Source of the DNA: Bdellovibrio svalbardensis
GTDB taxonomy: Bacteria > Bdellovibrionota > Bdellovibrionia > Bdellovibrionales > Bdellovibrionaceae
NCBI RefSeq assembly: GCF_029531655.1
Contig: NZ_JANRMI010000001.1
Location: 372,001 to 436,000, forward strand
DNA length: 64,000 bases
Direction of reading: 5' to 3'
Of the stretch, positions 3,357 through 63,936 are shown one piece after another (the first letter of the stretch is position 1; every line of letters starts with the position of its first letter). The position numbers and the translations under genes were made by a program. The notes beneath the pieces are model-generated. The model worked only from the letters and a program-made list of their open reading frames with translations, searched no databases and was not told the DNA's origin.

Positions 3357-3932
3357 ATGTTAAAAGTTGTCTCTACAATCTTGCTACTTTGCTCTGTTGC
3401 GAAATCCGCTGAACTTGCGGGTTTTGCTTCGGGACGCGAATTTGCAGCGACTCCTCTTGAGGGGACTGTTGTTATGACCTGCGAAGGTTTCAACGGAACC
3501 GGGCAGGCTGTCTATACCTGTCGTGATGTCGTTTTAGATCCTCAATCCTACGATACATTTATTGGCCCTGTGGATGCTCGTGCAAGCCAGGTTGAACTTC
3601 GCGCTGAGCACGAAGACGGATCAACTCGCGTCAAGATGGCGGGCTATAACGGAAAAGTCGGGAAGAGTGTTTCGACGTTCAATCTTTGGGTTTCAACGTT
3701 GTTCCAAAAGCCGTTGTTGATGGCGGGTACAAATAAGCTTTCCTACACGATCTACAACGGAAGCGGAGAGAGCTACCAGGAATATGCTCGTGGCAACTTC
3801 ATCGTCACAGTCAAACGCAACAGCCTGCGCCGCTGTCCAACAACTCAGTACAACTCTACAGATGTTACAGATTGCAATTCTCAATACTCCATCTGTCAGC
3901 GCTACTTCGAACAATACAATAACTGCCAATAA
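3357..3932 (+). CDS. Secreted cysteine-containing protein, function unknown
   Basis: 191 residues from the ATG at 3357, preferred because GAGGGGG lies just upstream; the ATG at 3342 has its purine run too close. It has a signal peptide (LKVVSTILLLCSVAKSAE). The mature part is rich in short beta-type stretches, and its last 35 residues carry four cysteines (RRCP, TDCN, SICQ, NNCQ) that could form disulphides in the periplasm. I do not recognise the family. The stop codon (3930-3932) directly abuts the left terminal repeat of a transposase element, so the native transcript end may have been displaced by that insertion. Confidence 0.7.
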   Translation: MLKVVSTILLLCSVAKSAELAGFASGREFAATPLEGTVVMTCEGFNGTGQAVYTCRDVVLDPQSYDTFIGPVDARASQVELRAEHEDGSTRVKMAGYNGKVGKSVSTFNLWVSTLFQKPLLMAGTNKLSYTIYNGSGESYQEYARGNFIVTVKRNSLRRCPTTQYNSTDVTDCNSQYSICQRYFEQYNNCQ

Positions 3933-11403: not shown

Positions 11404-12651
11404 CTAGTAGCATGAGCGAATATTGCCGACAGGTTCGCCGGTTTCGCTCAAGCTGACTGAGACATTGGATTTTATCAAGTCGGGTGTGAATCTGATTTTA
11501 GAATCATAAGGCGTTCTGCAAGGGACGCCACCCAGTCCGATCTCAATCAAATTCATTTTTCTATCAAAGCCGAAAATAGAATCTTGAGAAGAATAGGTTG
11601 CAAGAGAGCTTGGGCTTACAAAGACAGTTCCTTTGTAAGAAAACTCAGCTTGTGTTGTTAAAGGAGCTCCTTGAATTTGAACGACCTGTTCATTCTCATC
11701 AAATCTCCATTTGGTGCCAGAAATAAAGAGTGAAGAGTCAATTGAGTTGTACTGAAAGTATGGCAGCGGACAAGCCATTGATGACGCGAATTGGGGATCG
11801 ACTTCAACATTTAAAAGCTTTCCCTCTTTAGAAAGAAAAACAGCTCCCATGCGCGGACTCGCCTCAAGGTTAAAGCAAAGATAGTTGAAGTACGGCTTGT
11901 TGATGCTTTGGTGTGAGGAGAGAGCGGCATATCTAATTCTGCCACCCTCGTCGATATTGACTGGCGAACTTATCCATTCACCGGTGCTGTTCGCGGCACC
12001 CAGGAAAATCATAAGATCGTTGTACTGATAGCGACTGATGTGAACATCTTGAAGTTTTGCGATATAATCTTTTAAGCTAAAGATTCCCGGAAGATCAGAA
12101 TGAATGAAAGCGTTGAAGTAGCGAACTCTTTCAGAACTGAACTCTTGTGAGGGCGTCGAAATGAATTCACGGTAAATCAACTCATGAACGATCAGCGCCG
12201 CCTGATTGTCGGGATCCAGCTGATTCCAAAGCTTGGAATTGATAAGATAGCGATAGTTGTTAACCACCGAAGGCTGCTGTTGAACGATGACCTGCTCCAG
12301 TTGGCAGTTGTCTGGAATTAAAACCGCCCCCAGGTCTGGCGTTTTCGCAAAACTTCCACCGACAAAACTTGCAGTCCCCAAGAAACCGTCGAGCCAATCT
12401 TTGAAGAGCTTGGCGCGGTGTGAATCTATTCCTGAAAGGCGTGAAATCAACTCTGAAGCTTTAGCTAAAGTCTCAGTGGACTTTGTGGGCACTGGTGGAA
12501 GGTTAAAGCGTGTAGATGCTTCATAAAGATCGAGAACCTGTGGCTGTTGCCCCTGGCACAGAAGAACAAATCCGCCATTGCCGCGATCATACCAGTTATT
12601 CGCATACGAATTGATAGAGAACAAAAGAACAAGCGCGATAATGGTTTTCAT
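11404..12651 (-). CDS. Secreted protein coupled to a TIGR02147 regulator
   Basis: 415 residues with a signal peptide (MKTIIALVLLFSINSYA). The mature protein has segments like NSKLWNQLDPDNQAALIVHELIYRE; HELIYRE is metal-site-like (HExxxxE) but not a full HExxH. No known domain is recognised. Its ATG overlaps the stop of the upstream regulator gene by one base (TAATG), so the pair is translationally coupled. Such pairs of an exported protein with a TIGR02147 protein recur in Bdellovibrio, which suggests that the regulator controls or belongs to the same process. It converges on gshA, with a gap of only 9 bases. Confidence 0.7.
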   Translation of the reverse strand: MKTIIALVLLFSINSYANNWYDRGNGGFVLLCQGQQPQVLDLYEASTRFNLPPVPTKSTETLAKASELISRLSGIDSHRAKLFKDWLDGFLGTASFVGGSFAKTPDLGAVLIPDNCQLEQVIVQQQPSVVNNYRYLINSKLWNQLDPDNQAALIVHELIYREFISTPSQEFSSERVRYFNAFIHSDLPGIFSLKDYIAKLQDVHISRYQYNDLMIFLGAANSTGEWISSPVNIDEGGRIRYAALSSHQSINKPYFNYLCFNLEASPRMGAVFLSKEGKLLNVEVDPQFASSMACPLPYFQYNSIDSSLFISGTKWRFDENEQVVQIQGAPLTTQAEFSYKGTVFVSPSSLATYSSQDSIFGFDRKMNLIEIGLGGVPCRTPYDSKIRFTPDLIKSNVSVSLSETGEPVGNIRSCY

Positions 12652-13400
12652 TATTTTGTTACCTTCGTGACGGGGAAAAGTTGGATATTGAGATTGTATA
12701 CGTCAGTCTTTGGACCTTGTGACATGAGGTCCGCCATTTTTCTTCGGAATTTACGAATGATGCCTTTTGCTTCGGCGATTTTTTTTCGATTGATGGCAAA
12801 GGTGATGGAAGTCACATCTCTGAGATGCACCGGGACCGTATCCAATTGATCGACGACCTGTTGTAGTGACTGCCTATGCGAGCGACGAAGAGAGTCCGAA
12901 GGAATGTTATGTGTCGTCTCAAGTTGGCGCCTGGTTGCAACGAATTTTTTATCCTTGAGTTCTATTAGGCCTAAGCGAAGCAAGCGATCCAAGGCCGCCT
13001 GTGCAACTTCTGCAGGAATATTCAGGCGTTCACCAATCCATGCTGGATCTGATTGGAAAGACTTTAAGGTCATTAAAGCCATGATTGCAAAATGATACCA
13101 ATCGCAAATCACTGAAAACTCATCTTCGCGAAGTTGTGTTTCTGAGCGCAAAGTTTTTTTGCTTTTCTTGTCTAACTCAATCAAAGTTTTGAGATGTTCC
13201 AGATCAGCGGGGTTCAATGAGAGGTTCTTGGTAATCTGTTTGGCGACCGCGACAGTCATTACTCGGCGGCCATTCAAATAGTCACTGAGGCGACTGGCCG
13301 GAATTCCTAAGTTTTTAGCGAATTGAGAATTCGTTAATGCCGGAGACAAAGTTTTCTGTCTTTGGAATTCATTGAGAAGAAATTCTGAAGATTTATGCAT
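12651..13400 (-). CDS. TIGR02147-family DNA-binding regulator
   Basis: 249 residues. The N-terminus is a helix-turn-helix of the phage-repressor type (SQFAKNLGIPASRLSDYLNGRR, about 27-48). A C-terminal region follows with WYHFAIMALMTL and ending DVYNLNIQLFPVTK, the signature of the TIGR02147/DUF4423 family expanded in Fibrobacter and Bdellovibrio. It probably acts as a transcription regulator. Tandem palindromes lie about 80 bases upstream, between this gene and the divergent fibre locus, and are good candidates for its own operator. Confidence 0.85.
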   Translation of the reverse strand: MHKSSEFLLNEFQRQKTLSPALTNSQFAKNLGIPASRLSDYLNGRRVMTVAVAKQITKNLSLNPADLEHLKTLIELDKKSKKTLRSETQLREDEFSVICDWYHFAIMALMTLKSFQSDPAWIGERLNIPAEVAQAALDRLLRLGLIELKDKKFVATRRQLETTHNIPSDSLRRSHRQSLQQVVDQLDTVPVHLRDVTSITFAINRKKIAEAKGIIRKFRRKMADLMSQGPKTDVYNLNIQLFPVTKVTK

Positions 13401-13777
13401 AGGCTTCTTTTACTATAACGACAGAGTAGGGAGTCAAAGGCTTAGTGAGTTAGTATCGTATTCCTTCGAGGGTAGTGGTAAAATTACCAAATAAAATCAG
13501 GTAATTTACCATTTTGTAAGGGCCGAGGAATGCTGGAGGGGAGCGGGTTTGAGGGCTCTCATACAATTTTTACAATTGTCTCTCGAATGGCACTCTTCTG
13601 ATTCATTTGAAAGGTCAAAAAAATTTCCGCGTTCATGACTTTTTGAGGGGCGGAATCTTTATTTTGTGATCTAAGTTCTTCCAGAAATTTGCGGTAATTT
13701 GCACCGATTCGTCTGGGTTTCCATTGCAAGGCTATCACACTTCTTTAGGGCGACATATTCTAGTCCGAAGAGGAGAT
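13401..13777. other. 377-bp divergent intergenic region
   Basis: No credible gene. It separates the leftward TIGR02147 operon from the rightward lipoprotein/fibre genes. It is AT-rich around 13470-13520, where two dyads occur, and holds a degenerate third GGTAATTT..ACC at 13693-13705. I could not place a convincing -35/-10 pair for either direction. Confidence 0.6.
13476..13510. promoter_or_regulatory. Tandem dyads, candidate operator
   Basis: TGGTAA-AA-TTACCA at 13476-13489 and GGTAA-T-TTACC at 13500-13510. Their centres are about 22 bp apart, close to two helical turns, as for two repressor dimers on one face of DNA. They lie between a helix-turn-helix regulator gene and the fibre locus. 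The function is inferred from symmetry and position only. Confidence 0.5.
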
Positions 13778-14059
13778 ATGAGATTTAGTCTGTTCTTATT
13801 CATAGTTCTTTCGACATCACTTTTTTGCGTAGGTTGCTCCATCGATGCGAGCATTCAGTCGCTGGTGCAAGACAAATTCTCTATCGAGCGAAGTGGAAGT
13901 GCTTTGGCCATAGCGCCCTCCGTGCAAAGACAGGCCAAAGATCAATATGGTCAATACAAAGTTCAAAGCGCAGTAGGCGAAGTTCTGAAATCGGAAGGCA
14001 GCAAAACTAATGACGGTGTTTATCGAGCTGAAATCAGTGTGACATATCAATCGATGTGA
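13778..14059 (+). CDS. Small putative lipoprotein before the giant fibre
   Basis: 93 residues from the ATG at 13778 (GAAGAGGAG just upstream; an in-frame TTG-led extension to 13724 lacks a site). Its N-terminus is hydrophobic, ending FCVGC at Cys20, a plausible though imperfect lipobox. The mature part is short, polar and without recognised domain. The stop at 14057-14059 sits 11 bases before the fibre ATG at 14071, and a GTG at 14056 would even overlap, so the two are one transcription unit. It could anchor or assist the fibre, which is inference from position. Confidence 0.65.
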   Translation: MRFSLFLFIVLSTSLFCVGCSIDASIQSLVQDKFSIERSGSALAIAPSVQRQAKDQYGQYKVQSAVGEVLKSEGSKTNDGVYRAEISVTYQSM

Positions 14060-14070
14060 ATGAGGAACGT

Positions 14071-17000
14071 ATGAAGAGCATGAAGCTGATTGTTGCGATA
14101 CTTATCTTTGCGCAGACGGCCCTGGGAAATGGGCCGAAGGGCATCAATATATCAGGAAAGATTGTTGAAGATGCCTCTAACGTCGCGTTGTCGTCGGCAG
14201 CCGTGGATTTTACTATTAAGGTTTTAAGTCCAGACAATTGTTTATTGTATTCCGAGCAACATCTAAATACAGATCTAAGCGCAACAGGCGGAACGTTTTC
14301 ATTTACTATCGGTGAAGGAACATCTCCTATAAATGTTTATTCTGTGGGATCACCACAATCTCGCGCGAGCCTACTTAAGGTATTTTCAAACTCAACAGCA
14401 TTAGTGAGCGGTTTAACTTCAGAGGATCAGGGGCTCGAAACAACAGTGTGTCCTGGCTCCTACACTCCAGCAGCTGGAGATCAACGCAAGGTTAAAATCA
14501 TTTTTAATACGGGGTCTGGTGGCGATCGAGCGATCCTGCCTTATCACAATATTGGCTCAGTCCCTTATGCGATGGTTGCGGAAGAAGCTACAAGCGCGGC
14601 AAAGGCCACTGATGCTGATCAGTTAGGTGGGCAGCCTGCTTCAGCCTATGCACTCGCTTCAGATTTGAGTGTTTCAGTTCCTGCAAATGAAACCGATCCT
14701 TCGGTAAAATCATTTGCGAAGTCCAATCTTCCTTCATGTAACGCTGGTGAAGTATTAAAAGCTTCAGGCGGAGTGCTGACTTGTGTGAGTGCGGGCGGTT
14801 CTGTTGCTGTCGCAACAACAACATCCACTGGTATAGTGCAGGTAGGCAGTGGCCTTTCGGTCAACGGTGCGGGGGTGCTTTCAACTGATACGGCGGCAAT
14901 TAAAACTGCATTGGCTCTGGGACTTACCGATGTCACGGGATTACAAACAGCTTTGAACGATCGTGTTTTGTATTCTCAGATGCCTTCGTGTGGTGCGGAT
15001 GAAGTTTGGACTTTCGTTTCCCCTGCAGGTGGTTTCGTTTGTACTCCAATTTCGATCACGTCAGCCAAGGTGAGTGACTTCAATACCGCGGTGGATGCAC
15101 GAATTGCTGCTGATACGACAAAACTACCTTTGAGCGGCGGCACTATGACAGGTGCGATCAACATGAATGATCAGAATTTGACTTTAACCGGTTACATTAC
15201 GATGAACCCATCAAAGTCATTGCACCTTTCGAACAATGCGACGGATCCAGCGGGCTTGACGGTTGCAGATAAAGGTAAAGTTTGGTTTAACTCGACAACT
15301 AACGAAATGAAATACTGGGACGGCACGCAGGCTAAAGTAATAGGTACTGCGGGGGCTGGTGTTCAATCAATGAATGGTTTGAGCGACAATGCTCAGGCTT
15401 TTGCTTTGGGCACGAGCGGTACTGACTTTAATATTAATTCCGCTTCTGGCGTTCACACATTTAATATTCCAAGTGCTTCTGCCTCAAATCGCGGTCTTTT
15501 GACGGCGGCTGATTATACGACATTCTCTAATAAACTCTCTGCGGTTAGTGGCAGTGCTTTGCCTTCAGCTCAAATTTGGGTGGGTAATGCTGGTGGTAAT
15601 GCTGCGGCTGTATCGCTGAGTGGTGATGCGACGATTAGCAACGCTGGTGTTTTTGCGCTGAAAAACACTGGCGCTGCTGGAACTTACTACAAAGTGACAA
15701 CGGATGCGCAAGGTCGCGTTTCAAGCGGTGTCTCGACACTGGCTGTTTCAGATGTAACAAATCTTCAAACTGATTTGGATGCCAAGGTTCCATACGCTCA
15801 ATTGGCAACTTGTACTGATAATCAAACTTTGAAGTTTATTTCCCCAGTGGGTGGTTTTTCGTGTGTGAACATTGCGATCACCGCTTCACAGGTAACTGAT
15901 TTCAGTACGGCAGTGGATGCGCGAATTGCCGCAGATACGACGAAGCTGCCAGTTGCTGGCGGCACCATGACAGGTACCCTCAATATGGGTGGCCAAGATG
16001 TTACGAATGCGGGAAATGTTTCTTTAGCTTCAAATAAAAATCTTCAACTGGGTTCTTATGCAGCGGATCCATCAACGGCGGCTTGGGGAGCAGCGGAAAA
16101 AGGTCGGACTTGGTTTAATACCACCAGTAACCAGATTAAATATTGGGATGGAGCTGCAGTGCAGGCTCTGGGAATTTCTGGAGCGGGTTTAACTTCATTC
16201 AATGGTCAAGTTGGTTCTACTCAAACTTTAGCGGTGCCGGGCACTTCGGGCGCAGCTCCAAACTGGTCGTCATCTGGTAATACTCATACCTTGAATATTC
16301 CACTGGCGTCTTCTGCCGGCGCAACAGCGGGTCTTTTAAGTAAAACAGATTACGATTCTTTTGTTGCGAAACAGCCGGCAGGAAACTATGTCACAGCCTT
16401 GACGGGGGATGTGACTGCTACAGGCCCGGGTTCTGCGGCGGCGACAATTGCCGCGAATGCAGTGACAACAAGTAAAATTTTAGACGGAACCATCTTGGCT
16501 GCTGATTTGAATTTCACGGGCGTGAATACAGCAACTTCTGGAATTGCCATCGTAGATTCAGCTGGTAAGTTTAATAACTTCGCGTGCGGAACTACGGGTC
16601 ATGTTGCGACTTGGACCGTGACAGGCTGGGCTTGTCAGGCTCCTGCCGCAACAGGGGTGACGAGTGTTGCGACGGGCACGGGACTTACTGGTGGTCCCAT
16701 CACAGGAACTGGCACTATTTCTTTGGCAAATACTGCGGTCGCGGCTGCCTCCTATGGTTCCGCGACACAAATTGGAACCTTCACAGTGGATGCGCAAGGT
16801 CGTTTGACTGCAGCGGGCAATGTGACGGTAACTCCTGCGTGGTCTTCAATCACAGCAACGCCAACAACTCTTGCGGGCTATGGAATCACAGACGCTCAGT
16901 CATCTACATTGACTGATGGAAAAATCTTAGTAGGTAATGCTTCGAATATTGCGACAGCCCAAACAATGAGTGGTGATGCCACACTATCGAATGCTGGGGC

Positions 17001-20000
17001 TTTGACATTGGCTTCAAGCGGTGTGTCTGCGGGAACTTATTCTAAGGTGACCGTGGATGCAAAAGGTCGCGTGACTGTTGGAGCGAATATCGTTTCAGGT
17101 GATGTGACGACAGCCTTGGGCTACACTCCGCTGAATAAAGCGGGCGATGTGATGGCAGGGCTTTTAGGTCTTAATGGTGTTGCTGCGGACCCAGGTGGCC
17201 TTGTTGCTGGTGACAAAGGTAAGATGTGGTATCGCACGGATACTAACGAGATCAAATACTGGAATGGCTCCGCAGCAATTGCACTTGGTGTTTCGGGTGC
17301 AGGGTTGACTTCTTTGGGTGGTCAAACAGGATCAACACAAACTTTTGCCACGGGAACAACAGGTGCGGCTCCAGCTTGGTCATCAGCTTCCAATACTCAT
17401 ACACTCAATATCCCAATGGCTTCTTCTGCGGGGACTACCGCAGGTCTATTAAGCAAGACTGATTACGATTCTTTCGTAGCGAAGCAACCCGCAGGTAACT
17501 ATGTCACAGCCTTAACTGGTGATGTAACTGCCGCTGGTCCTGGCTCTGCGGCGGCGACAATTGTCGCGAATGCAGTGACAACAGGTAAAATTTTAGACGG
17601 CACGATCCTAGGTGTTGATTTGAATTTCACGGGCGTGAACACCGCGACTTCAGGAATTGCTATCGTAGATTCAACGGGCAAGTTTAATAACTTCGCCTGC
17701 GGAACTGCGGGCCACGTTGCAACTTGGACGGTGACGGGTTGGGCCTGTCAGGCTCCTGCAGCAACAGGGGTTACGAGTGTCGCAACGGGCACTGGATTAA
17801 CGGGTGGTCCAATCACGGGAACTGGTACGATTTCTTTGGCTAACACGGCTGTCACTGCTGCTGCGTATGGTTCTGCAACTCAAGTGGGGACATTCACCGT
17901 AGATGCTCAAGGCCGTTTGACTGCTGCAGGCAACGTGACAGTGACTCCTGCTTGGTCGTCGATTACGGGAACTCCGACGACGCTAGCGGGTTATGGCATC
18001 ACCGATGCTCAATCTTCCACTCTGGCAGATGGAAAGATATTTGTCGGTAACGGCTCCAACGTTGCAACCGCTCAAACAATGTCCGGCGATGCATCTTTAT
18101 CGAATGCGGGCACACTTACTTTGGCGAGCTCTGGTGTGACAGCGGGAACTTATTCTAAAGTGACTGTGGATGCGAAAGGTCGTGTGACTGTTGGAGCGAA
18201 TATCGCATCCGGCGATGTGACGACGGCCTTGGGCTACACGCCGCTGAACAAAGCGGGTGATGTCATGACTGGAAACTTTGGTCTTAACGGTGTGACCTCA
18301 GATCCAGGCGGTCTTGTCGCTGGCGATAGAGGTAAGATGTGGTATCGCACGGATACCAACGAAGTTAAATATTGGAACGGTACAAGCGCAGTTGCTCTCG
18401 GTGTTTCTGGTGCGGGTCTTACTTCGTTGAATGGTCAAAATGGTTCCACTCAAACATTTGCAATTGGAACGACGGGCGCAGCGCCAGCATGGTCATCAGG
18501 TTCTAATACTCATACACTGAATATCCCATTGGCGTCTTCTGCGGGTACAACCGCAGGTCTGTTAAGTAAAACTGATTACGATTCTTTTGTAGCAAAACAA
18601 CCCGCGGGTAACTATGTCACAGCATTGACTGGGGATGTGACTGCCGCAGGCCCAGGCTCTGCAGCGGCGACTATTGCCTCGAATGCAGTGACGACTGGTA
18701 AAATTTTGGATGGCACTATTTTGGGTGCAGATTTGAACTATACTGGTGTTAACACTGCCACTTCAGCAATTGCAATTAAAGACAGCACCGGTAAGTTCTT
18801 CGATTTTGCCTGCGGAACAACTGGCCACGTTGCTACGTGGACAGCAACTGGTTGGGCCTGTCAGGCTCCGGCAGCAAATGGAACTGTAACTAACGTTGCG
18901 ACTGGAGCTGGTTTGACTGGTGGCCCGATCACTGGCTCTGGAACTATTTCTTTGGCCAACACCGCAGTAACTGCTGCTTCGTATGGTTCTGCAACTCAAG
19001 TCGGAACCTTTACTGTCGATTCTCAAGGTCGTTTAACTGCGGCTTCGAATGTGACAGTGACACCAGCTTGGACCTCGATCACAGGAAAACCGACAACGCT
19101 TGCGGGCTATGGCATCACTGATGCTCAGTCTTCAACTTTGGTGGATGGAAAAATATTAGTTGGTAATGCTTCGAATGTTGCTACAGCTCAAACAATGTCT
19201 GGAGATGCAACTTTATCTAATGTGGGAGCCTTGACACTCGCGTCAAGCGGTGTGACTGCGGGAACTTACTCTAAAGTCACTGTCGATGCAAAAGGTCGCG
19301 TGGCTGTCGGAGCGAATATCGCATCCGGCGATGTGACAACAGCATTAGGCTTTGCTCCACTAAATAAAGCCGGTGATGTGATGTCGGGTCTCCTCGGCCT
19401 TAATGGTGTTGCAGCAGATCCAGGCGGACTTGTTGCTGGTGACAAAGGTAAGATGTGGTATCGCACGGATACCAACGAAGTTAAATACTGGAACGGCTCT
19501 ACGGCTGTTGCTCTTGGTGTTTCAGGCGCTGGTTTAACATCGCTGAATGGTCTTAGTGGATCGACACAAACATTCGCGACAGGAACGAGTGGAACTGACT
19601 TCAATATTTCTTCTGCATCGACAACTCATACATTTAATTTCCCGAGTGCTTCTGGCACCAATCGGGGTCTGCTAACGTCAGCAGACTGGTCTTCGTTCAA
19701 TTCAAAATTGGGAACAGCTTCTGCGTTTTCTGGAGATGTAAGTGGAACTTCATCGACGATGTCCGTGGATAAATTAAAAGGTAAGAGCCTTGCTCCAGTT
19801 GCTTACTCTGCCGGGCAACATCTTCGGTATGATGGCACGAACTGGGTCAATAGCTTATTGGCGCTTTCAACCGATGTGACTGGAACCTTGCCTGTGGCCA
19901 ACGGGGGGACGGGCTCGACGACTATAGGTTCAGGTAACTTGATGGTTGGTGCAGGCACTGGTGCTGTGACTTCGCTGGCGGCAGGAGTTGCAGGAAATGT

Positions 20001-23000
20001 AGTTTATGCGACAGGTGTTTCTACATGGGCAAGTGGTTCTCCTGATGCAGCGGGGGTTGTGGATAAAGCTAGCACCCAAGTAATCTCAGGCGCAAAGGCG
20101 TTCCTCAACTATATTCAATTGAGTTCACGAAATGAGGTTCGTTTCGCCGATCTGGATTCAAGTAACTACGTTGCATTCAATGCACCTGCGAATGTTGCTG
20201 CAAACGTGACGTGGACTTTGCCAGCTGCCGATGGTGCAAGTGGTAGTGTCTTAAGTACGAACGGAGCTGGAATACTGTCTTGGGCTCCCGTTTATAATGG
20301 TTCAGATAAGGTTACGAAGACCGGTGATAGCATGACCGGGGCGTTGCAAATGAATTCTCGAAATGAAATTCGGTTTGCTGATTTAGATTCGAGTAACTAT
20401 GTGGGGTTCAACTCACCAGCTAATGTGACTGCAAACGTTGTATGGACATTACCCGCTGCTGATGGCACAAATGGGCAAACTCTAACTACCAATGGATCTG
20501 GGGCTTTGTCCTGGACAACTCCAAGTGCTGGAGGAATCACTTCATTAAACGGTCTTAGTGGAGCGGCACAAACTTTTGCAACAGGAACGACGGGAACAGA
20601 TTTTAATATCTCTTCTGCATCAACGATCCATACTTTCAATTTTCCAAATTCTTCGGGTACCAATCGTGGTCTTCTAACATCTACCGACTGGACAACTTTC
20701 AATTCTAAATTGGGAACAGCTTCGACTTTTTCCGGTGATGTTTCTGGTACTTCTAGCACGATGTCAGTTGATAAAATAAAAGGTAAGAGTGTTGTTCCCG
20801 TGGCTTATTCTGCCGGCCAGGCTCTTCGTTATGACGGCACGAATTGGGTCAATACCTTAATCAATATATCAACGGATGTAACTGGGACTTTGCCAGTGGC
20901 CAACGGTGGCACAGGTGCGACTTCGATTGGCTCTGGTAACATAGTTGTCGGAGCAGGCACGGGTGCGGTGACATCATTGGCAGCAGGTGTGGCCGGAAAT
21001 TTAGTTTATGCTACGGGTGTTACAACTTGGGCAAGCGGCACACCTGATACGGCGGGCCTTGTTGATAAGACTTCAACCCAGACAATCTCTGGAGCAAAAG
21101 CATTTACAAACTATCTTCAAATGAGTGCGCAAAATCAGTTGCGTCTTGCCGATAGCGATTCTTCTAATTACATCGCTCTGCGATCTCCAGCAACTGTAGC
21201 AGCAAATGTGACTTTAACTATGCCAGCAACAGCAGGCACAAATGGTCAGGCATTAACGACTGACGGTAGTGGAACATTATCTTGGGTGACTCCAGGATTA
21301 CCAAGTAATTCAATTCCCATCTATCAAGTTCGAGTCGCAACGACGGCGAATATTACCTTATCAGGGACCCAAACAATTGATGGAGTCAGCGTTATCGCTG
21401 GGGATCGTGTGTTGGTAAAAAACCAAACGACAGATTCACAAAATGGCGTATATGTGGTGGCTGCAGGAGCTTGGACTAGAGCAACTGATATGGACGCGTG
21501 GACGGAGACAATTGGTTATCATGTGCAAGTGAGCGAGGGAAGTGCTGGAGCGGGGATGAGCTTTTCTTCCAGCACGGTGCCGTCGGGAACAATTGGGACT
21601 ACATCTCTTAACTGGACATCAAATGGAAGTGCGACAACGGTTGAAAATACAGCAAATGGTTTAAGTGCTCTATTTAAAAACACCACAGGGACCAACAATA
21701 CCGCAAACGGTGCATGGGCGCTTCTGAACAATACTTCGGGAATTGAGAACACCGCAAATGGCTGGGGCACGCTTTTCACAAATACCACTGGTGGTGAAAA
21801 TACTGCAGACGGCTCCGCAGCACTCTATGCGAATACGACCGGATCACAAAATACCGCAAACGGATGGAGTGCGCTTCGTTACAACACAACTGGTTGGTAT
21901 AACGTAGCATTGGGAGATCAAGCTCTCTACAGCAGTGCTACAGCGGATAACAACGTTGCCGTAGGCTCAAGTGCCATTTACTCCAACTCCACGGGGAGCA
22001 AAAATTCGGCGATTGGTGCAAATAGTCTGTTCGGTAATACGGTAGGTACTGGCAATACTGCCTCCGGGTATCAGGCCCTCTATAGCAACAACGCAAAATT
22101 TGAATCAACTGCTATTGGATACTTGTCAATGAAGTATGCGGATAGTACAGCCACGGCGTCCACTTCGTACAACACGGCCCTTGGCGCATATTCACTTTAT
22201 GGAAGTACAACGGCTTCTGCGAATACAGGAACTAAGAACACGGCACTTGGCCATTCAGCTTTAAAAATTATGACATCTGGAAGCTCAAATATTGGAATCG
22301 GTTATAACTCGGGATCGGCGATCACAACGGGAAGTAACAACGTTGTAATTGGGTCTAATACCGGTTCGACGATTGCAACAAGTTCAAATACTATTCTAGT
22401 ATCCGATGGCGCGGGCACAGAGAGATTGCGCATTGATAGTTCCGGCAACGTTGGTATCGGAACGACTACGCCCGCGCGATTACTTCATGTCTCTGGGCCG
22501 ATGCGAATTACTCCCGCCGCTTTGCCAGGTTCACCAGCAGCTGGTGATATTGCCATAGACAATGCTGCTTCCAACGCTCTCAAGTATTACAATGGTTCAT
22601 CTTGGGTGTCAGTGGGTTCCTCTTTCCCTCTTTTGGGTTCTGGTGGTTCATGGTCAGGTCCGACATATAGTTTTGCTTCGAGCACTACGACTGGTATGTA
22701 TAGTTCGACTCTTGATACTCTTGAGTTTGCAGCAGGAGGCAATCGAGTTTTCTATATTGATTCTCAAGGATTCAATGTGGGTGGCTATGGTCGCATCAAA
22801 GATGCTGGAATGGCATCAGCTCCCACCTATACTTTTCAGGCTGATACATCCAGTGGCATGTTTCAGCCTGCTGCAAACACTTTGGCGCTTTCCTCAGCAG
22901 GATCGGAGCGTGTTCGCATCACTGCAGCTGGAAACTTCGGTATTGGAACAGCGACTCCATCTACGGCACTACAAGTAAGCGGAGTGATTTCTCCGGCGGC

Positions 23001-23490
23001 GGATAATACCAACACTTTAGGAACAGCGGGTTTGCGATTTACGACTATCTACGCGACGAATGGAACAATCAATACCTCGGATCGTCGTCAGAAACAGGAC
23101 ATTGAAAATTCTGATCTGGGCTTGGACTTTATCAATAGGCTTCGTCCCGTTTCATACCGTTGGAAAACTGGAACAGATAAAGATCAGCATTATGGTTTAA
23201 TTGCACAAGAAACTGAAAAAGTTCTCAACGAGGTTTCAAAGTCCAACAGAAAACCAGCCGGCCAAGGCGTTGTTACTTATGACCGCGAGAGTGACCGTTA
23301 TGGTATTCGCTACACCGAGCTGATTTCACCCATAATCAAGGCGATTCAGGATCTATACGAGTCGTTAGTGGGAACTCAGAAAGAGGTCGTCGCACTGAAA
23401 GCTGAAAATACGATGATCAAAGCTTACCTTTGCAAAAAAGAGCCTACCGCACCCTTCTGCGGAGAGAGTTCAACCTTACTAGCCCGTTAG
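14071..23490 (+). CDS. Giant trimeric fibre/adhesin with S74 chaperone domain
   Basis: 3139 residues from the ATG at 14071 (GAGGA upstream); a GTG at 14056 would lengthen it by 5. A signal peptide (about 1-19) is followed by an N-terminal beta domain to about 170. The shaft consists of long repeats: a 371-residue unit about 2.9 times (residues about 772-1826) and a 334-residue unit about 1.7 times (about 1827-2409). Next comes a phage tail-fibre-like module (about 2414-2518: IDGVSVIAGDRVLVKNQTT), a YadA-head-like array of 14-15-residue NTAxGxxAL repeats (about 2523-2790), two GNxGIGTxTP segments, and a C-terminal S74 intramolecular chaperone (about 3003-3139: TSDRRQKQDI, YGLIAQETEKVL). This is the architecture of surface trimeric fibres, including Bdellovibrio mosaic adhesive trimers used for prey recognition. 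The specificity is unknown. Confidence 0.88.
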   Translation: MKSMKLIVAILIFAQTALGNGPKGINISGKIVEDASNVALSSAAVDFTIKVLSPDNCLLYSEQHLNTDLSATGGTFSFTIGEGTSPINVYSVGSPQSRASLLKVFSNSTALVSGLTSEDQGLETTVCPGSYTPAAGDQRKVKIIFNTGSGGDRAILPYHNIGSVPYAMVAEEATSAAKATDADQLGGQPASAYALASDLSVSVPANETDPSVKSFAKSNLPSCNAGEVLKASGGVLTCVSAGGSVAVATTTSTGIVQVGSGLSVNGAGVLSTDTAAIKTALALGLTDVTGLQTALNDRVLYSQMPSCGADEVWTFVSPAGGFVCTPISITSAKVSDFNTAVDARIAADTTKLPLSGGTMTGAINMNDQNLTLTGYITMNPSKSLHLSNNATDPAGLTVADKGKVWFNSTTNEMKYWDGTQAKVIGTAGAGVQSMNGLSDNAQAFALGTSGTDFNINSASGVHTFNIPSASASNRGLLTAADYTTFSNKLSAVSGSALPSAQIWVGNAGGNAAAVSLSGDATISNAGVFALKNTGAAGTYYKVTTDAQGRVSSGVSTLAVSDVTNLQTDLDAKVPYAQLATCTDNQTLKFISPVGGFSCVNIAITASQVTDFSTAVDARIAADTTKLPVAGGTMTGTLNMGGQDVTNAGNVSLASNKNLQLGSYAADPSTAAWGAAEKGRTWFNTTSNQIKYWDGAAVQALGISGAGLTSFNGQVGSTQTLAVPGTSGAAPNWSSSGNTHTLNIPLASSAGATAGLLSKTDYDSFVAKQPAGNYVTALTGDVTATGPGSAAATIAANAVTTSKILDGTILAADLNFTGVNTATSGIAIVDSAGKFNNFACGTTGHVATWTVTGWACQAPAATGVTSVATGTGLTGGPITGTGTISLANTAVAAASYGSATQIGTFTVDAQGRLTAAGNVTVTPAWSSITATPTTLAGYGITDAQSSTLTDGKILVGNASNIATAQTMSGDATLSNAGALTLASSGVSAGTYSKVTVDAKGRVTVGANIVSGDVTTALGYTPLNKAGDVMAGLLGLNGVAADPGGLVAGDKGKMWYRTDTNEIKYWNGSAAIALGVSGAGLTSLGGQTGSTQTFATGTTGAAPAWSSASNTHTLNIPMASSAGTTAGLLSKTDYDSFVAKQPAGNYVTALTGDVTAAGPGSAAATIVANAVTTGKILDGTILGVDLNFTGVNTATSGIAIVDSTGKFNNFACGTAGHVATWTVTGWACQAPAATGVTSVATGTGLTGGPITGTGTISLANTAVTAAAYGSATQVGTFTVDAQGRLTAAGNVTVTPAWSSITGTPTTLAGYGITDAQSSTLADGKIFVGNGSNVATAQTMSGDASLSNAGTLTLASSGVTAGTYSKVTVDAKGRVTVGANIASGDVTTALGYTPLNKAGDVMTGNFGLNGVTSDPGGLVAGDRGKMWYRTDTNEVKYWNGTSAVALGVSGAGLTSLNGQNGSTQTFAIGTTGAAPAWSSGSNTHTLNIPLASSAGTTAGLLSKTDYDSFVAKQPAGNYVTALTGDVTAAGPGSAAATIASNAVTTGKILDGTILGADLNYTGVNTATSAIAIKDSTGKFFDFACGTTGHVATWTATGWACQAPAANGTVTNVATGAGLTGGPITGSGTISLANTAVTAASYGSATQVGTFTVDSQGRLTAASNVTVTPAWTSITGKPTTLAGYGITDAQSSTLVDGKILVGNASNVATAQTMSGDATLSNVGALTLASSGVTAGTYSKVTVDAKGRVAVGANIASGDVTTALGFAPLNKAGDVMSGLLGLNGVAADPGGLVAGDKGKMWYRTDTNEVKYWNGSTAVALGVSGAGLTSLNGLSGSTQTFATGTSGTDFNISSASTTHTFNFPSASGTNRGLLTSADWSSFNSKLGTASAFSGDVSGTSSTMSVDKLKGKSLAPVAYSAGQHLRYDGTNWVNSLLALSTDVTGTLPVANGGTGSTTIGSGNLMVGAGTGAVTSLAAGVAGNVVYATGVSTWASGSPDAAGVVDKASTQVISGAKAFLNYIQLSSRNEVRFADLDSSNYVAFNAPANVAANVTWTLPAADGASGSVLSTNGAGILSWAPVYNGSDKVTKTGDSMTGALQMNSRNEIRFADLDSSNYVGFNSPANVTANVVWTLPAADGTNGQTLTTNGSGALSWTTPSAGGITSLNGLSGAAQTFATGTTGTDFNISSASTIHTFNFPNSSGTNRGLLTSTDWTTFNSKLGTASTFSGDVSGTSSTMSVDKIKGKSVVPVAYSAGQALRYDGTNWVNTLINISTDVTGTLPVANGGTGATSIGSGNIVVGAGTGAVTSLAAGVAGNLVYATGVTTWASGTPDTAGLVDKTSTQTISGAKAFTNYLQMSAQNQLRLADSDSSNYIALRSPATVAANVTLTMPATAGTNGQALTTDGSGTLSWVTPGLPSNSIPIYQVRVATTANITLSGTQTIDGVSVIAGDRVLVKNQTTDSQNGVYVVAAGAWTRATDMDAWTETIGYHVQVSEGSAGAGMSFSSSTVPSGTIGTTSLNWTSNGSATTVENTANGLSALFKNTTGTNNTANGAWALLNNTSGIENTANGWGTLFTNTTGGENTADGSAALYANTTGSQNTANGWSALRYNTTGWYNVALGDQALYSSATADNNVAVGSSAIYSNSTGSKNSAIGANSLFGNTVGTGNTASGYQALYSNNAKFESTAIGYLSMKYADSTATASTSYNTALGAYSLYGSTTASANTGTKNTALGHSALKIMTSGSSNIGIGYNSGSAITTGSNNVVIGSNTGSTIATSSNTILVSDGAGTERLRIDSSGNVGIGTTTPARLLHVSGPMRITPAALPGSPAAGDIAIDNAASNALKYYNGSSWVSVGSSFPLLGSGGSWSGPTYSFASSTTTGMYSSTLDTLEFAAGGNRVFYIDSQGFNVGGYGRIKDAGMASAPTYTFQADTSSGMFQPAANTLALSSAGSERVRITAAGNFGIGTATPSTALQVSGVISPAADNTNTLGTAGLRFTTIYATNGTINTSDRRQKQDIENSDLGLDFINRLRPVSYRWKTGTDKDQHYGLIAQETEKVLNEVSKSNRKPAGQGVVTYDRESDRYGIRYTELISPIIKAIQDLYESLVGTQKEVVALKAENTMIKAYLCKKEPTAPFCGESSTLLAR
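16384..19548 (+). repeat. In-frame 1113-bp tandem repeats inside fibre gene
   Basis: Units begin at 16384, 17497 and 18610 (each at the AACTATGTCACAGC codons), exactly 1113 bp or 371 codons apart. The third is cut short near 19548, where a second repeat family begins. Protein identity between units is very high while the DNA differs at many third codon positions. Confidence 0.92.
19549..21297 (+). repeat. In-frame 1002-bp repeat inside fibre gene
   Basis: Second repeat family. Copies start at 19549 and 20551 (GGTCTTAGTGGA in both), 334 codons apart. The second copy is shorter and ends near 21297 before the tail-fibre-like module. A shorter internal duplication (SRNEVRFADLDSSNYVAF and SRNEIRFADLDSSNYVGF) lies within the first copy. 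Confidence 0.88.
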
Positions 23491-23660
23491 GAAAGGAACC
23501 TAATTGGGCCGACCGTCTAACAATTTGTCGCTGGCGTCTTTGTCTTTAGCCTTATAAACCCATCTATTGCCTTCTGGGATGAGCTATCTGAAGAGCTTCC
23601 CCGGTATGGAGTTTGCTCTTCCAATCCTTGTTAAAATCAATTTATTTCAGGGAGATTATC

Positions 23661-24269
23661 ATGTTGAAGAAAAAGGCTATTTTGGCGTTTATGTCGGGTC
23701 TTCTCATTCAAAGCGTTGCTTCGGCAGGTGTGAAAGAAGCCGCCTTTCAGTGTGTGTACTTCACATGCCCTGCGATCCTATTGCGGGTAACAGGAGTCAG
23801 CTACCTTCTTGAGAATATTGAGCGCAATAAACAAGCTCAGAAAATTGTGGCCGCCACAGAAGATGCTAACTTCTTTAAGTCACATGTCATTCAGTCAAAT
23901 CGCGGTGAGCTGGCGAATGATCTCTATAACAAACTCGTGATTCATGTGGCTCCTGGGGACGTTGTAACACAATCAGTTCAGGTGAAGCATACCTCTGGTG
24001 ATGGCTCTTACTACTACACTTCAGAAGATGCGTTACTTGAAGTGGACACGACTCAGCCTATCCTTTTAGAAAACAGAATCGCAACGGGAGTAAAGATCAA
24101 TGGGCGTGCGCTTATTTCGCCAGCTTTGGCGGAAGCCCATTTGGCGGTGCAGTTCCTGATTTTCTCTGATGCCTTGGTTGTTAAAGATACAGATCGCACA
24201 CAGTACTCCATCGCAACGGATGCTCTTTCGTTGAACGAGATTGCGATCATGTTTGCTCATAAAAAATAA
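23661..24269 (+). CDS. Secreted protein, function unknown
   Basis: 202 residues from the ATG at 23661, with AGGGAG at 23649-23654. A signal peptide (LKKKAILAFMSGLLIQSVASA) and a mature part with two early cysteines (FQCVYFTCPAILL) are visible. No domain is recognised. A 170-base gap separates it from the fibre gene, so I treat it as separately transcribed. It is not obviously related to the fibre. Confidence 0.65.
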   Translation: MLKKKAILAFMSGLLIQSVASAGVKEAAFQCVYFTCPAILLRVTGVSYLLENIERNKQAQKIVAATEDANFFKSHVIQSNRGELANDLYNKLVIHVAPGDVVTQSVQVKHTSGDGSYYYTSEDALLEVDTTQPILLENRIATGVKINGRALISPALAEAHLAVQFLIFSDALVVKDTDRTQYSIATDALSLNEIAIMFAHKK

Positions 24270-24364
24270 CCCTGAACGTAGAGGTTTACCATGTCCGGGA
24301 TGTTATTTTGATATCCCGCTTCCCACCAAATATTTTTTCCGTATCCTTTAAATCGGGGGGCGGA

Positions 24365-24682
24365 ATGTCTGAAGATGTGAAGGCGCAAGTTGAAATGAAT
24401 ACGGCGGGCGCTCATATGAGAACCTATCTTGAGGAGATGGTTAAAAAGATCGTTCGCAATCCCAGTGACGCGCGGATTGAGTTTTCCCAGGGGGAGAAGA
24501 CGACGGTTTATATCGCTGTTGTAAATCCAGACGATCTTGGATTGTTGCTAGGTAAAAAAGGAGCGACGATTGATGCTATCCGAACTTTAGTGAGAGCGAT
24601 GATGGCTCGGTATGGGATGAGAGCCATCGTGCAATTAGACGAGCAACTTGAGAGTCATTGCGCTAAGAGTGATCTGGATTAG
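24365..24682 (+). CDS. khpA: KH-domain RNA-binding protein (KhpA/YlqC-like)
   Basis: 105 residues from the ATG at 24365, directly after a GGGGGGCGGA run; the frame opens earlier but that part is not KH-like. A single KH domain is visible with VVNPDDLGLLLGKKGATIDAI, including the GxxG loop (GKKG) that grips single-stranded RNA. KhpA partners with KhpB in Gram-positives and binds many small RNAs and mRNAs; here it stands alone. Its 3' end overlaps the convergent esterase gene by four bases. Confidence 0.8.
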   Translation: MSEDVKAQVEMNTAGAHMRTYLEEMVKKIVRNPSDARIEFSQGEKTTVYIAVVNPDDLGLLLGKKGATIDAIRTLVRAMMARYGMRAIVQLDEQLESHCAKSDLD

Positions 24683-62161: not shown

Positions 62162-63298
62162 ATGCAAAACAATCATCTAGAGTTTGGCAAAGGCAAAGAG
62201 AATTCAACGACTTCGCTGGTTCCGCCAGTCTTGTCTGATTACATGAATTACCGCCAGTTTCTGGCAGACTTTTATAAGTTCAAACGTCAGGCTTCCAAAG
62301 GAGCTTTGAGAGCTTATAACTATGCCGTGTTCTCTGCGGCAGCGAACATCAAATCTCCGAACTATTTGAAAATGATCATCGAAGGAAAAAGAAATCTTTC
62401 TGACGATATGATCGGCAAATTCGGTAAAGCCCTGGGTTTCAATAAAGAAAACACTGAAGAGTTCCGTTTGCTCGTGCAATTCACGCAAGCAACAGATCCT
62501 GCAGACCGCAATATGTTCCTGAAAAAACTCAGCGAACACAGAGTCGGTGTAAAACTTAAATCGGGTGAGATCGATCGTAAGAGCTTTGAAAAAGTTCCGA
62601 ACTGGGTTGCGTGGATTATCTATGCCATGGTCGATCAAGACGGAGTTTCCTTCGATACAGCCTCTTTGAAAAAGCTTCTTCGTGGCAAAGCCTCTGAAGA
62701 CGAAATCGAAACTTCATTGAACACCTTGGTGGCTTCTGGCGATCTGCGCAGAGACGAAGTGACCGGGGAGTTGAAGAAGGCCCGCAGTCTGACTGAATCA
62801 CCGGAAGACATTCCAGTGGCATTGGTCAGAAAGCTTCAATCACAATTGATGTACTTGGGCCTTGAGTCTTTGTACCAAGATCAACCCACAGACCGCGAGT
62901 TCGGTACATTGACGATGTCTTTGACGAAAACAGAATTCGAAGAAATCAAATTCAAGCTTCGCCAAATGCGCAAGTCGATCAATAAAGACAACTCTATCGC
63001 GCGCATGAAAACAAAAGGGGAGAGAGTTTACCAACTCAACATCCAATTGTTCCCAGTGACCAACGCCGCAGAGGGTTTGGAAAAAGCTGCAGAGAAAACA
63101 GTGACCATGAACCAGGTGATTCAGCCGGCTCTTGATGTGAAGGTTGACACAATGGTTGAGGTGGCTGCGGCTGCCCCAGTTGCTGCCCCAATTCCTGAGG
63201 CTGCACCAAATGTTGCTTCGGCGACCGCTCCTGCAAAAACTTCGAACGTCAGTTCGCTTGCCGCAACTGCTGCTTCAGCAGCAGATCTTTTCCGCTAA
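62162..63298 (+). CDS. TIGR02147-family regulator with Ala/Pro tail
   Basis: 378 residues. It has an N-terminal module with a DNA-binding-like helix set (SDYMNYRQFLADFYKFK, NYLKMIIEGKRNLSDDMI), a middle domain (VPNWVAWIIYAMVDQ) and VYQLNIQLFPVTN, the diagnostic TIGR02147 ending seen also in the protein at 12651. An extra Ala/Pro-rich tail of about 65 residues follows. It stands alone before tmRNA, unlike the first copy, which is coupled to a secreted protein. It probably regulates transcription. Confidence 0.82.
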   Translation: MQNNHLEFGKGKENSTTSLVPPVLSDYMNYRQFLADFYKFKRQASKGALRAYNYAVFSAAANIKSPNYLKMIIEGKRNLSDDMIGKFGKALGFNKENTEEFRLLVQFTQATDPADRNMFLKKLSEHRVGVKLKSGEIDRKSFEKVPNWVAWIIYAMVDQDGVSFDTASLKKLLRGKASEDEIETSLNTLVASGDLRRDEVTGELKKARSLTESPEDIPVALVRKLQSQLMYLGLESLYQDQPTDREFGTLTMSLTKTEFEEIKFKLRQMRKSINKDNSIARMKTKGERVYQLNIQLFPVTNAAEGLEKAAEKTVTMNQVIQPALDVKVDTMVEVAAAAPVAAPIPEAAPNVASATAPAKTSNVSSLAATAASAADLFR

Positions 63299-63590: not shown

Positions 63591-63936
63591 GGGGGCGTAC
63601 TGGCTTCGACGTGGGTGCTGAAACATAAGGAGCATACCGGGGCGGATGAGGACCTCGATAAAAACGTCCATTTTGTAATTGGCAACGATTACGCACTTGC
63701 AGCTTAATTGACTGCACGATCTCCCTTGAGGCGGCTGCGCTCTTGGATAGATTGTCACTTTAGTGGCCTCGGCGTGTTGGGTTTTCTCCAGCAGACTCGC
63801 TTAAATACACTGGGGGAATGTGTCGCGTATATTTTGTCTGTAGAAGCTGCGCGAACAAATTAAAATACTGACTAAGTATGTAGCGCCTTATCGCGGATCA
63901 CTTGCGGACGGGGGTTCAATTCCCCCCGCCTCCACC
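63591..63936 (+). ncRNA. ssrA: tmRNA (SsrA)
   Basis: A 346-base tmRNA. The 5' GGGGGCG pairs with the 3' CGCCTCC, and GGGGCGTACTGGCTTCGACG and the T arm GGGGGTTCAATTCCCCC are diagnostic. The tag frame at 63681-63707 reads GNDYALAA then stop, following the conserved TAATT resume context. The 3' end is ACC then T, so the terminal A of CCA must be added by enzyme. A TATAAG at 63560-63565 is a probable -10 box. The gene rescues stalled ribosomes, and its tag directs products to ClpXP or Lon, all encoded in this window. Confidence 0.96.

Follow-up and report, generated by a model that had tools for sequence, protein, structure and literature searches.

The closest described counterparts of the locus analyzed here are the mosaic adhesive trimers (MATs) of Bdellovibrio bacteriovorus HD100. 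Caulton et al. (2024; PMC10769870) deleted six of these fibres and, according to that paper, the losses of Bd2734 and Bd2740 were the two that slowed predation on E. coli; the same text states that MAT N-domains bind tightly to a surface element of unknown identity. Here we describe a 64,000-nucleotide stretch (the window; positions 372001-436000 of contig C1) of the 3.9 Mb genome of Bdellovibrio svalbardensis (G000), which is in the same genus as HD100 (G003), and in which the gene for a giant MAT fibre lies directly behind the gene for a 93-residue lipoprotein. The window fibre is a member of the MAT family, and its lipoprotein belongs to a real family that recurs directly upstream of certain classes of MAT N-domain. 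The two genes probably constitute one functional unit, consisting of a prey-adhesion fibre and a dedicated lipoprotein that holds the base of the fibre at the outer membrane.

The fibres of phages are fixed to the virion and are not known to have a Sec signal peptide or a lipoprotein partner. The S74 tail fibres and spikes of phages, such as the L-shaped fibre of T5 (4UW8), share with the window fibre a C-terminal S74 intramolecular chaperone that is detectable from sequence, but differ at the base, which in the window fibre is a Sec-exported N-domain. Donor-strand complementation, the mechanism of chaperone-usher pili, serves here as a working analogy only, in that a strand of the partner may complete an immunoglobulin (Ig)-like domain of the fibre; no homology is shown, the partner is a lipoprotein, the fibre is a predicted trimer from a single gene, there is no usher, and the analogy comes from one predicted model. 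The MIDAS lipobox adhesin Bd0875 of HD100 has been described as a surface adhesin that is likely lipid-anchored (PMC11003981); in that case the adhesin itself is lipidated, whereas here the lipid would sit on a separate small protein. Like the MATs of HD100, the window fibre has a signal peptide, an N-domain and a repetitive shaft, it carries an S74 domain with an SDxxxK motif as do 13 of the 21 HD100 proteins, and its N-domain groups with that of Bd2734. It differs from them in length, at about 1.6 times that of the longest, and in the modules that precede S74, which are of phage head-decoration and virion-repeat type.

A first-pass annotation of this DNA had placed a 93-residue lipoprotein 11 bases before a 3139-residue exported fibre, and the reading frames at 13778-14059 and 14071-23490 bear this out, with the signal peptide assigned by inspection. 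The most plausible start of the fibre is the ATG at 14071, which has a GAGGA just upstream. The NCBIfam model of the MAT N-domain (NF053851, cut-off 60 bits) matches the fibre with 132.6 bits (E 1.1e-38), and the Pfam S74 model matches residues 3003-3055 with 53.2 bits (cut-off 22, E 3.6e-14), with an intact motif SDRRQK at S3003; the S74 region also matches the T5 L-shaped tail fibre 4uw8 (E 1.9e-5). The proposed plan of a Bdellovibrio MAT with long shaft repeats and an S74 chaperone is upheld by these matches together with the shaft, which contains three units of 1113-1116 nucleotides (nt) that are 77-82% identical in DNA among 300-nt reference blocks, and one pair of 1002-nt units. Other parts of the plan needed revision. 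The tail-fibre-like module does match phage tail-fibre families, but matches phage head-decoration families as well. The supposed YadA-head-like array had no Pfam family at E<=10 over residues 2520-2800, so that no Hep_Hag/YadA head repeats are recognized, and it resembles phage virion structural and tail-spike families instead. A YadA C-terminal beta-barrel anchor was not found in a Pfam scan of the whole fibre, the C-terminus of which is S74, and by sequence the window MAT has no membrane anchor. The fibre is unusually long when set beside the longest MAT of HD100 (1959 amino acids, aa), but not within its own genome, which has 16 S74 genes and about 21 MAT N-domain genes, and in which some MAT or S74 reading frames exceed it, at 3367, 3531, 3689 and 4029 aa. 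Since a 3685-aa reading frame for an S74 MAT with a canonical N-domain (G000 C2:176622-187679) has no upstream lipoprotein, pairing cannot be predicted from gene length alone.

No Pfam, NCBIfam or PHROG model is matched by the 93-aa lipoprotein, and the C-terminal part of the lipoprotein of Bd2734 gave chance matches only against the PDB. An unrelated role for the family, which had been raised as a possible objection to the pair, was looked for in Pfam, NCBIfam, PHROG and PDB searches and none was found. By alignment and by adjacency to MATs the window lipoprotein fits a MAT-associated family as we define it here, with a lipobox, the motif C-S-[ILM]-[DE]-A-S-[IL], a variable linker and two G-Y-x-V strand-like repeats, the last of which stands at the C-terminal end. 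The cysteine is invariant and the serine at +2 nearly invariant across 29 aligned members. In E. coli, for which the rule is established, serine at +2 leads to outer-membrane sorting; applied to Bdellovibrio, the same rule predicts sorting of this family to the outer membrane. As a separate observation, the motif C-S-[ILM]-[DE]-A-S behind the lipobox is seemingly common to the N-termini of many large Bdellovibrio lipoproteins, as judged from weak profile matches that cover only model positions of about 4-36, in frames of 800-2000 aa. This motif could be a surface-sorting signal.

The pair recurs well beyond the window. Three other giant MATs of the same genome are preceded by family lipoproteins (C2:105962-106243, C2:313070-313354 and C1:1128792-1129079), and a further family lipoprotein follows a MAT cluster (C1:803966-804286). 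HD100 has 21 N-domain genes, which is the number given in PMC10769870, and six of them have a lipoprotein immediately upstream. Five of these lipoproteins are small and belong to Bd2734, Bd2740 and the MATs at 682443, 2349942 and 2463239, while the sixth, of 198 aa, precedes the MAT at 3102058. Bd2734 was recognized as the 843-aa MAT whose residues 691-843 exactly match the crystallized Bd2734 tip (8OKW); its lipoprotein gene either overlaps the published 843-aa frame by 4 nt or ends 8 nt before an internal ATG, and a 53-nt gap separates Bd2740 from its lipoprotein. The lipoprotein genes of Bd2734 and Bd2740 lie at 2658561-2658842 and 2661396-2661674 of HD100 and, by gene count, would be numbered Bd2735 and Bd2739. 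Within the taxonomic family, a profile of the lipoprotein family has matches (E<=1) in 55 of 66 genomes. Of 94 distinct loci inspected, 52 have the lipoprotein gene followed immediately by a MAT N-domain in the same orientation, and these come from 12 genera in families f1, f7 and f9. The two genes usually overlap or nearly touch, with overlaps of 4 or 8 nt common. At the level of the class (144 genomes), the lipoprotein is found in 56 genomes at E<=0.001 and MATs in 106, with all 56 lipoprotein genomes MAT-positive (hypergeometric 1.3e-10, ignoring shared ancestry). No phage record with matching DNA for the lipoprotein plus N-domain was present in the collection searched.

Whether a MAT is paired is structured by its N-domain. 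We built a maximum-likelihood tree of 73 N-domain genes, 21 of them paired, from the window's genome, HD100 and nine g17 genomes; the genes were fetched via the fibre (N-domain or S74) and never via the lipoprotein, which leaves the test unbiased by the latter. Nominal lipoproteins 128-183 nt from canonical MATs (for example L139 and L043) were rejected as chance reading frames, and these MATs were scored as unpaired. The trait "paired" changes 3 times on the tree as compared to 18.4 times for shuffled labels, and none of 500 shuffles was as low. Within the canonical class (SLTYQGRI and its cousins in g17) one g17 gene is paired and the others are not; the divergent classes are paired except for L146, a 626-aa reading frame that fits the published length of Bd2872. 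The sister of the window N-domain is that of Bd2734. Additionally, lipoprotein distances correlate with N-domain distances (Spearman 0.56, 38 pairs, 0 of 2000 permutations). Judged from these comparisons, pairing follows N-domain class, and lipoproteins and N-domains have diverged together. Bdellovibrio encodes many lipoproteins, so that a fibre gene might come to lie behind one without any functional link, but such chance adjacency is effectively refuted by recurrence at 52 loci in 12 genera and by both randomizations, and its probability is negligible. The same data bear on the idea of a protective role, in which the lipoprotein would shield the predator against its own fibre by self-recognition or exclusion. 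Small outer-membrane lipoproteins can act in exclusion in other systems, and here one is encoded with an adhesin of variable tip; protection should track the tip, however, while the conserved part of the lipoprotein co-varies with the base of the fibre, and tips differ inside one N-domain class (S74 in the window, TNF-like in Bd2734). We consider self-protection very improbable.

Longer lipoproteins of about 200-350 aa stand upstream of some MATs in HD100, the window's genome, g17 and families f7 and f9. These share only the C-terminal module with the small lipoproteins, likewise at their end, and two of them show a Big_1-like Ig domain between lipid and module at sub-threshold scores. A constant C-terminus on spacers of varying length is what would be expected of a lipoprotein that binds through its C-terminus. 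The window lipoprotein by itself gave a poor fold prediction (strands at pLDDT of about 45-50). In a second model the lipoprotein and MAT genes of L084, which are in frame, were folded by AlphaFold as a single chain with the stop read as a residue. Its N-domain is well predicted, and the last strand of the lipoprotein (62-73, TVQTNVQSTLFK) lies mostly in a block with pLDDT of about 78, and its end falls in one of about 51. In nearly all alignments of this model with Ig-like domains the aligned part begins around residue 58-62 and ends around 241, although at a Z of only 6-7, and Foldseek gave no significant match (best E 0.011). The model hints that the lipoprotein strand may be the first strand of a sandwich of which the N-domain forms the rest.

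The published account presumes a surface element that is tightly bound by MAT N-domains, and the window MAT shows no membrane anchor by sequence. With moderate confidence, we favor the view that the lipoprotein is this element, namely what MAT N-domains pair with at the outer membrane and most likely what anchors them there. The lipidated cysteine would insert into the outer membrane and the conserved C-terminal strands would bind the N-domain; S74 would trimerize the fibre and then cut itself off, leaving a mature fibre of about 3000 residues that would stand off the cell and contact prey. More tentatively, the last strand of the lipoprotein might complete the Ig-like beta-sandwich of the N-domain in the style of donor-strand complementation. 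The main competing explanation is a periplasmic assembly or export factor that would retain unfolded N-domains on the periplasmic side of the outer membrane while the fibre has yet to trimerize and cross, without being a permanent anchor. The gene order, with the lipoprotein first and translationally close, would let a helper be synthesized shortly before its client, and dedicated partners of divergent N-domains would be expected of a chaperone no less than of an anchor. The available text of PMC10769870 does not deal with the passage of MATs across the outer membrane. Many MATs already have a folding chaperone in S74, which speaks against such a factor, yet pairing also extends to MATs without S74 such as Bd2734; the larger relatives with a Big_1-like spacer resemble surface stalks more than chaperones. 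On this evidence an assembly factor seems rather unlikely.

Several observations weigh against the lipoprotein being an anchor. No localization, binding or deletion data were found for any of the lipoproteins, and both the co-occurrence and the distance tests ignore shared ancestry. The fold evidence is weak, since the two models concern different lipoproteins, a fused chain could create contact by proximity, and the fold was read without coordinates or error maps. At the class level 50 of the 106 MAT genomes have no lipoprotein match at E<=0.001; small lipoproteins spotted by eye beside MATs in match-free genomes (G043, G050 and G052) indicate that the profile misses divergent members. Fibre genes without a neighboring lipoprotein, which had been named as a finding that would undo the pair, do literally exist, as 15 of the 21 HD100 MATs have none immediately upstream although canonical MATs are surface displayed. 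These unpaired MATs are almost wholly of the one canonical class, so that they limit the range of the pair and do not refute it. Furthermore, at 42 of the 94 loci no MAT directly follows the lipoprotein gene, as would suit an independent attack-phase surface or periplasmic protein that shares transcripts with MATs but has no contact with them. A stand-alone subtype that is conserved even without an adjacent MAT gene (L073, L075 and L077) suits such a protein too, but the structuring of pairs by N-domain class, the joint divergence and the absence of any lipoprotein-positive genome without MATs speak against it, and we judge it improbable. The stand-alone lipoprotein itself (DPAKTTGLVSGSTQTG...YKVYSSVQGAIVSN) is orthologous and strongly conserved across the genus near prmA. 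Canonical MATs, such as Bd3182, may share this lipoprotein, which is kept in most Bdellovibrio genomes beside a MAT cluster or prmA. A keyed anchor code, in which donor strands anchor the fibres, with a shared lipoprotein for canonical ones and dedicated, co-diverged lipoproteins for divergent ones, is a tentative extension of the model-based reading that is possible but less likely than not.

The genes around the pair (Table 1) show some recurrence of their own. TIGR02147 genes, of which there are roughly 26 in the window's genome, adjoin all four giant small-lipoprotein MAT pairs of that genome and two pairs of HD100, and these neighbors possibly provide local control of fibre expression. 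Exported proteins encoded with TIGR02147 genes (in the window, at L152:355-1200 and in the L053 region) have HE-L motifs and weak sub-threshold metallopeptidase matches. A four-gene cassette was considered and dropped, as the exported protein of the window (415 aa) and the one beside pair 2, on C2 (341 aa), are similarly placed but dissimilar in sequence (E 1.1). Just downstream of the fibre are a 218-aa exported protein of no family (23613-24269, +) and a small KH-domain RNA-binding-like gene (24308-24682, +). Similar KH-like genes lie near several MATs; the library comparison behind this label covers the window gene only. Elsewhere in the window, a strong TIGR02147 gene (62237-63064) and a gene for tmRNA (63591-63936, tag GNDYALAA) stand side by side.

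Table 1. Features of the lipoprotein-fibre locus and related genes; positions are those of the window unless a genome, contig or locus is given.
Feature	Position	Strand	Basis or remark
Lipoprotein gene, 93 aa	13778..14059	+	ATG 13778 to TGA 14059; signal peptide, lipobox FCVG-C20, then CSIDASIQSL
Putative ribosome-binding site of lipoprotein gene (aagaggag region)	13767..13775	+	Read from sequence
Codon of predicted lipidated Cys20, Ser at +2	13835..13837	+	Sequence, alignment
Conserved C-terminal module, two G-Y-x-V strand repeats, QYKVQSAVGE...GVYRAEISVTYQSM; proposed fibre-binding part	13943..14056	+	Family alignments
MAT fibre, S74 subgroup, 3139 aa	14071..23490	+	NF053851, Pfam S74, signal peptide
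Putative ribosome-binding site GAGGA of fibre gene, in 11-nt gap	14062..14066	+	Read from sequence
Sec signal peptide MKSMKLIVAILIFAQTALG	14071..14127	+	By inspection
MAT N-terminal domain, divergent lipoprotein-paired class (GINISGKI...)	14128..14592	+	NF053851, residues 10-196
Shaft, 3 copies of 371/372-aa unit (1113-1116 nt)	16238..19548	+	
Shaft, 2 copies of 334-aa unit (1002 nt)	19537..20838	+	
Phage head-decoration or tail-fibre-like module, residues about 2416-2524	21316..21642	+	PHROG to E 1.5e-31; PDB 9nx3 capsid decoration protein E 1.1e-7
NTAxG...NTTG repeat array, residues about 2520-2800	21628..22470	+	Similar to virion structural and tail-spike families of phages
C-terminal S74 domain, an intramolecular chaperone or protease; S3003 is the predicted site of self-cleavage	23077..23487	+	SDRRQK is an intact SDxxxK
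Putative regulator, TIGR02147 family, divergent	12651..13400	-	NCBIfam E 2.3e-31
Exported protein, 415 aa, overlapping TIGR02147 gene	11404..12651	-	Weak metallopeptidase-like match, below cut-off
TIGR02147 genes beside other pairs	G000 C2:103905, C2:326061-326768, C1:1125573, C1:1127845; HD100 681208, 2464210		
Other KH-like genes near MATs	L053 (C1:1124253-1124660, C1:1126479-1126838); L044 (C2:187695-188018)		
Stand-alone lipoprotein instances	L043:4970-5260 (-); HD100 3191019-3191369; L061-L079		

The first-pass suggestion of a fibre with its own, undescribed lipoprotein emerges much strengthened by recurrence in 12 genera of three families, by co-segregation with N-domain class and by co-divergence. 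The main text of PMC10769870 nowhere uses the word "lipoprotein", though its supplementary files might, and the literature text searched, with supplements outside the search, gave no published account of such a lipoprotein partner, nor of Bd2735 or Bd2739. The conserved lipoprotein partner is undescribed as far as searchable text goes, while the fibre belongs to a known family. MAT fibres are how Bdellovibrio recognizes and handles many prey, and the lipoprotein provides a specific, testable candidate for the surface element that binds their N-domains, in a genus where HD100 offers deletion and tagging tools. If true, anchoring by this lipoprotein would explain how fibres without a membrane domain are retained on the cell, and how different classes of fibre might be positioned or released.

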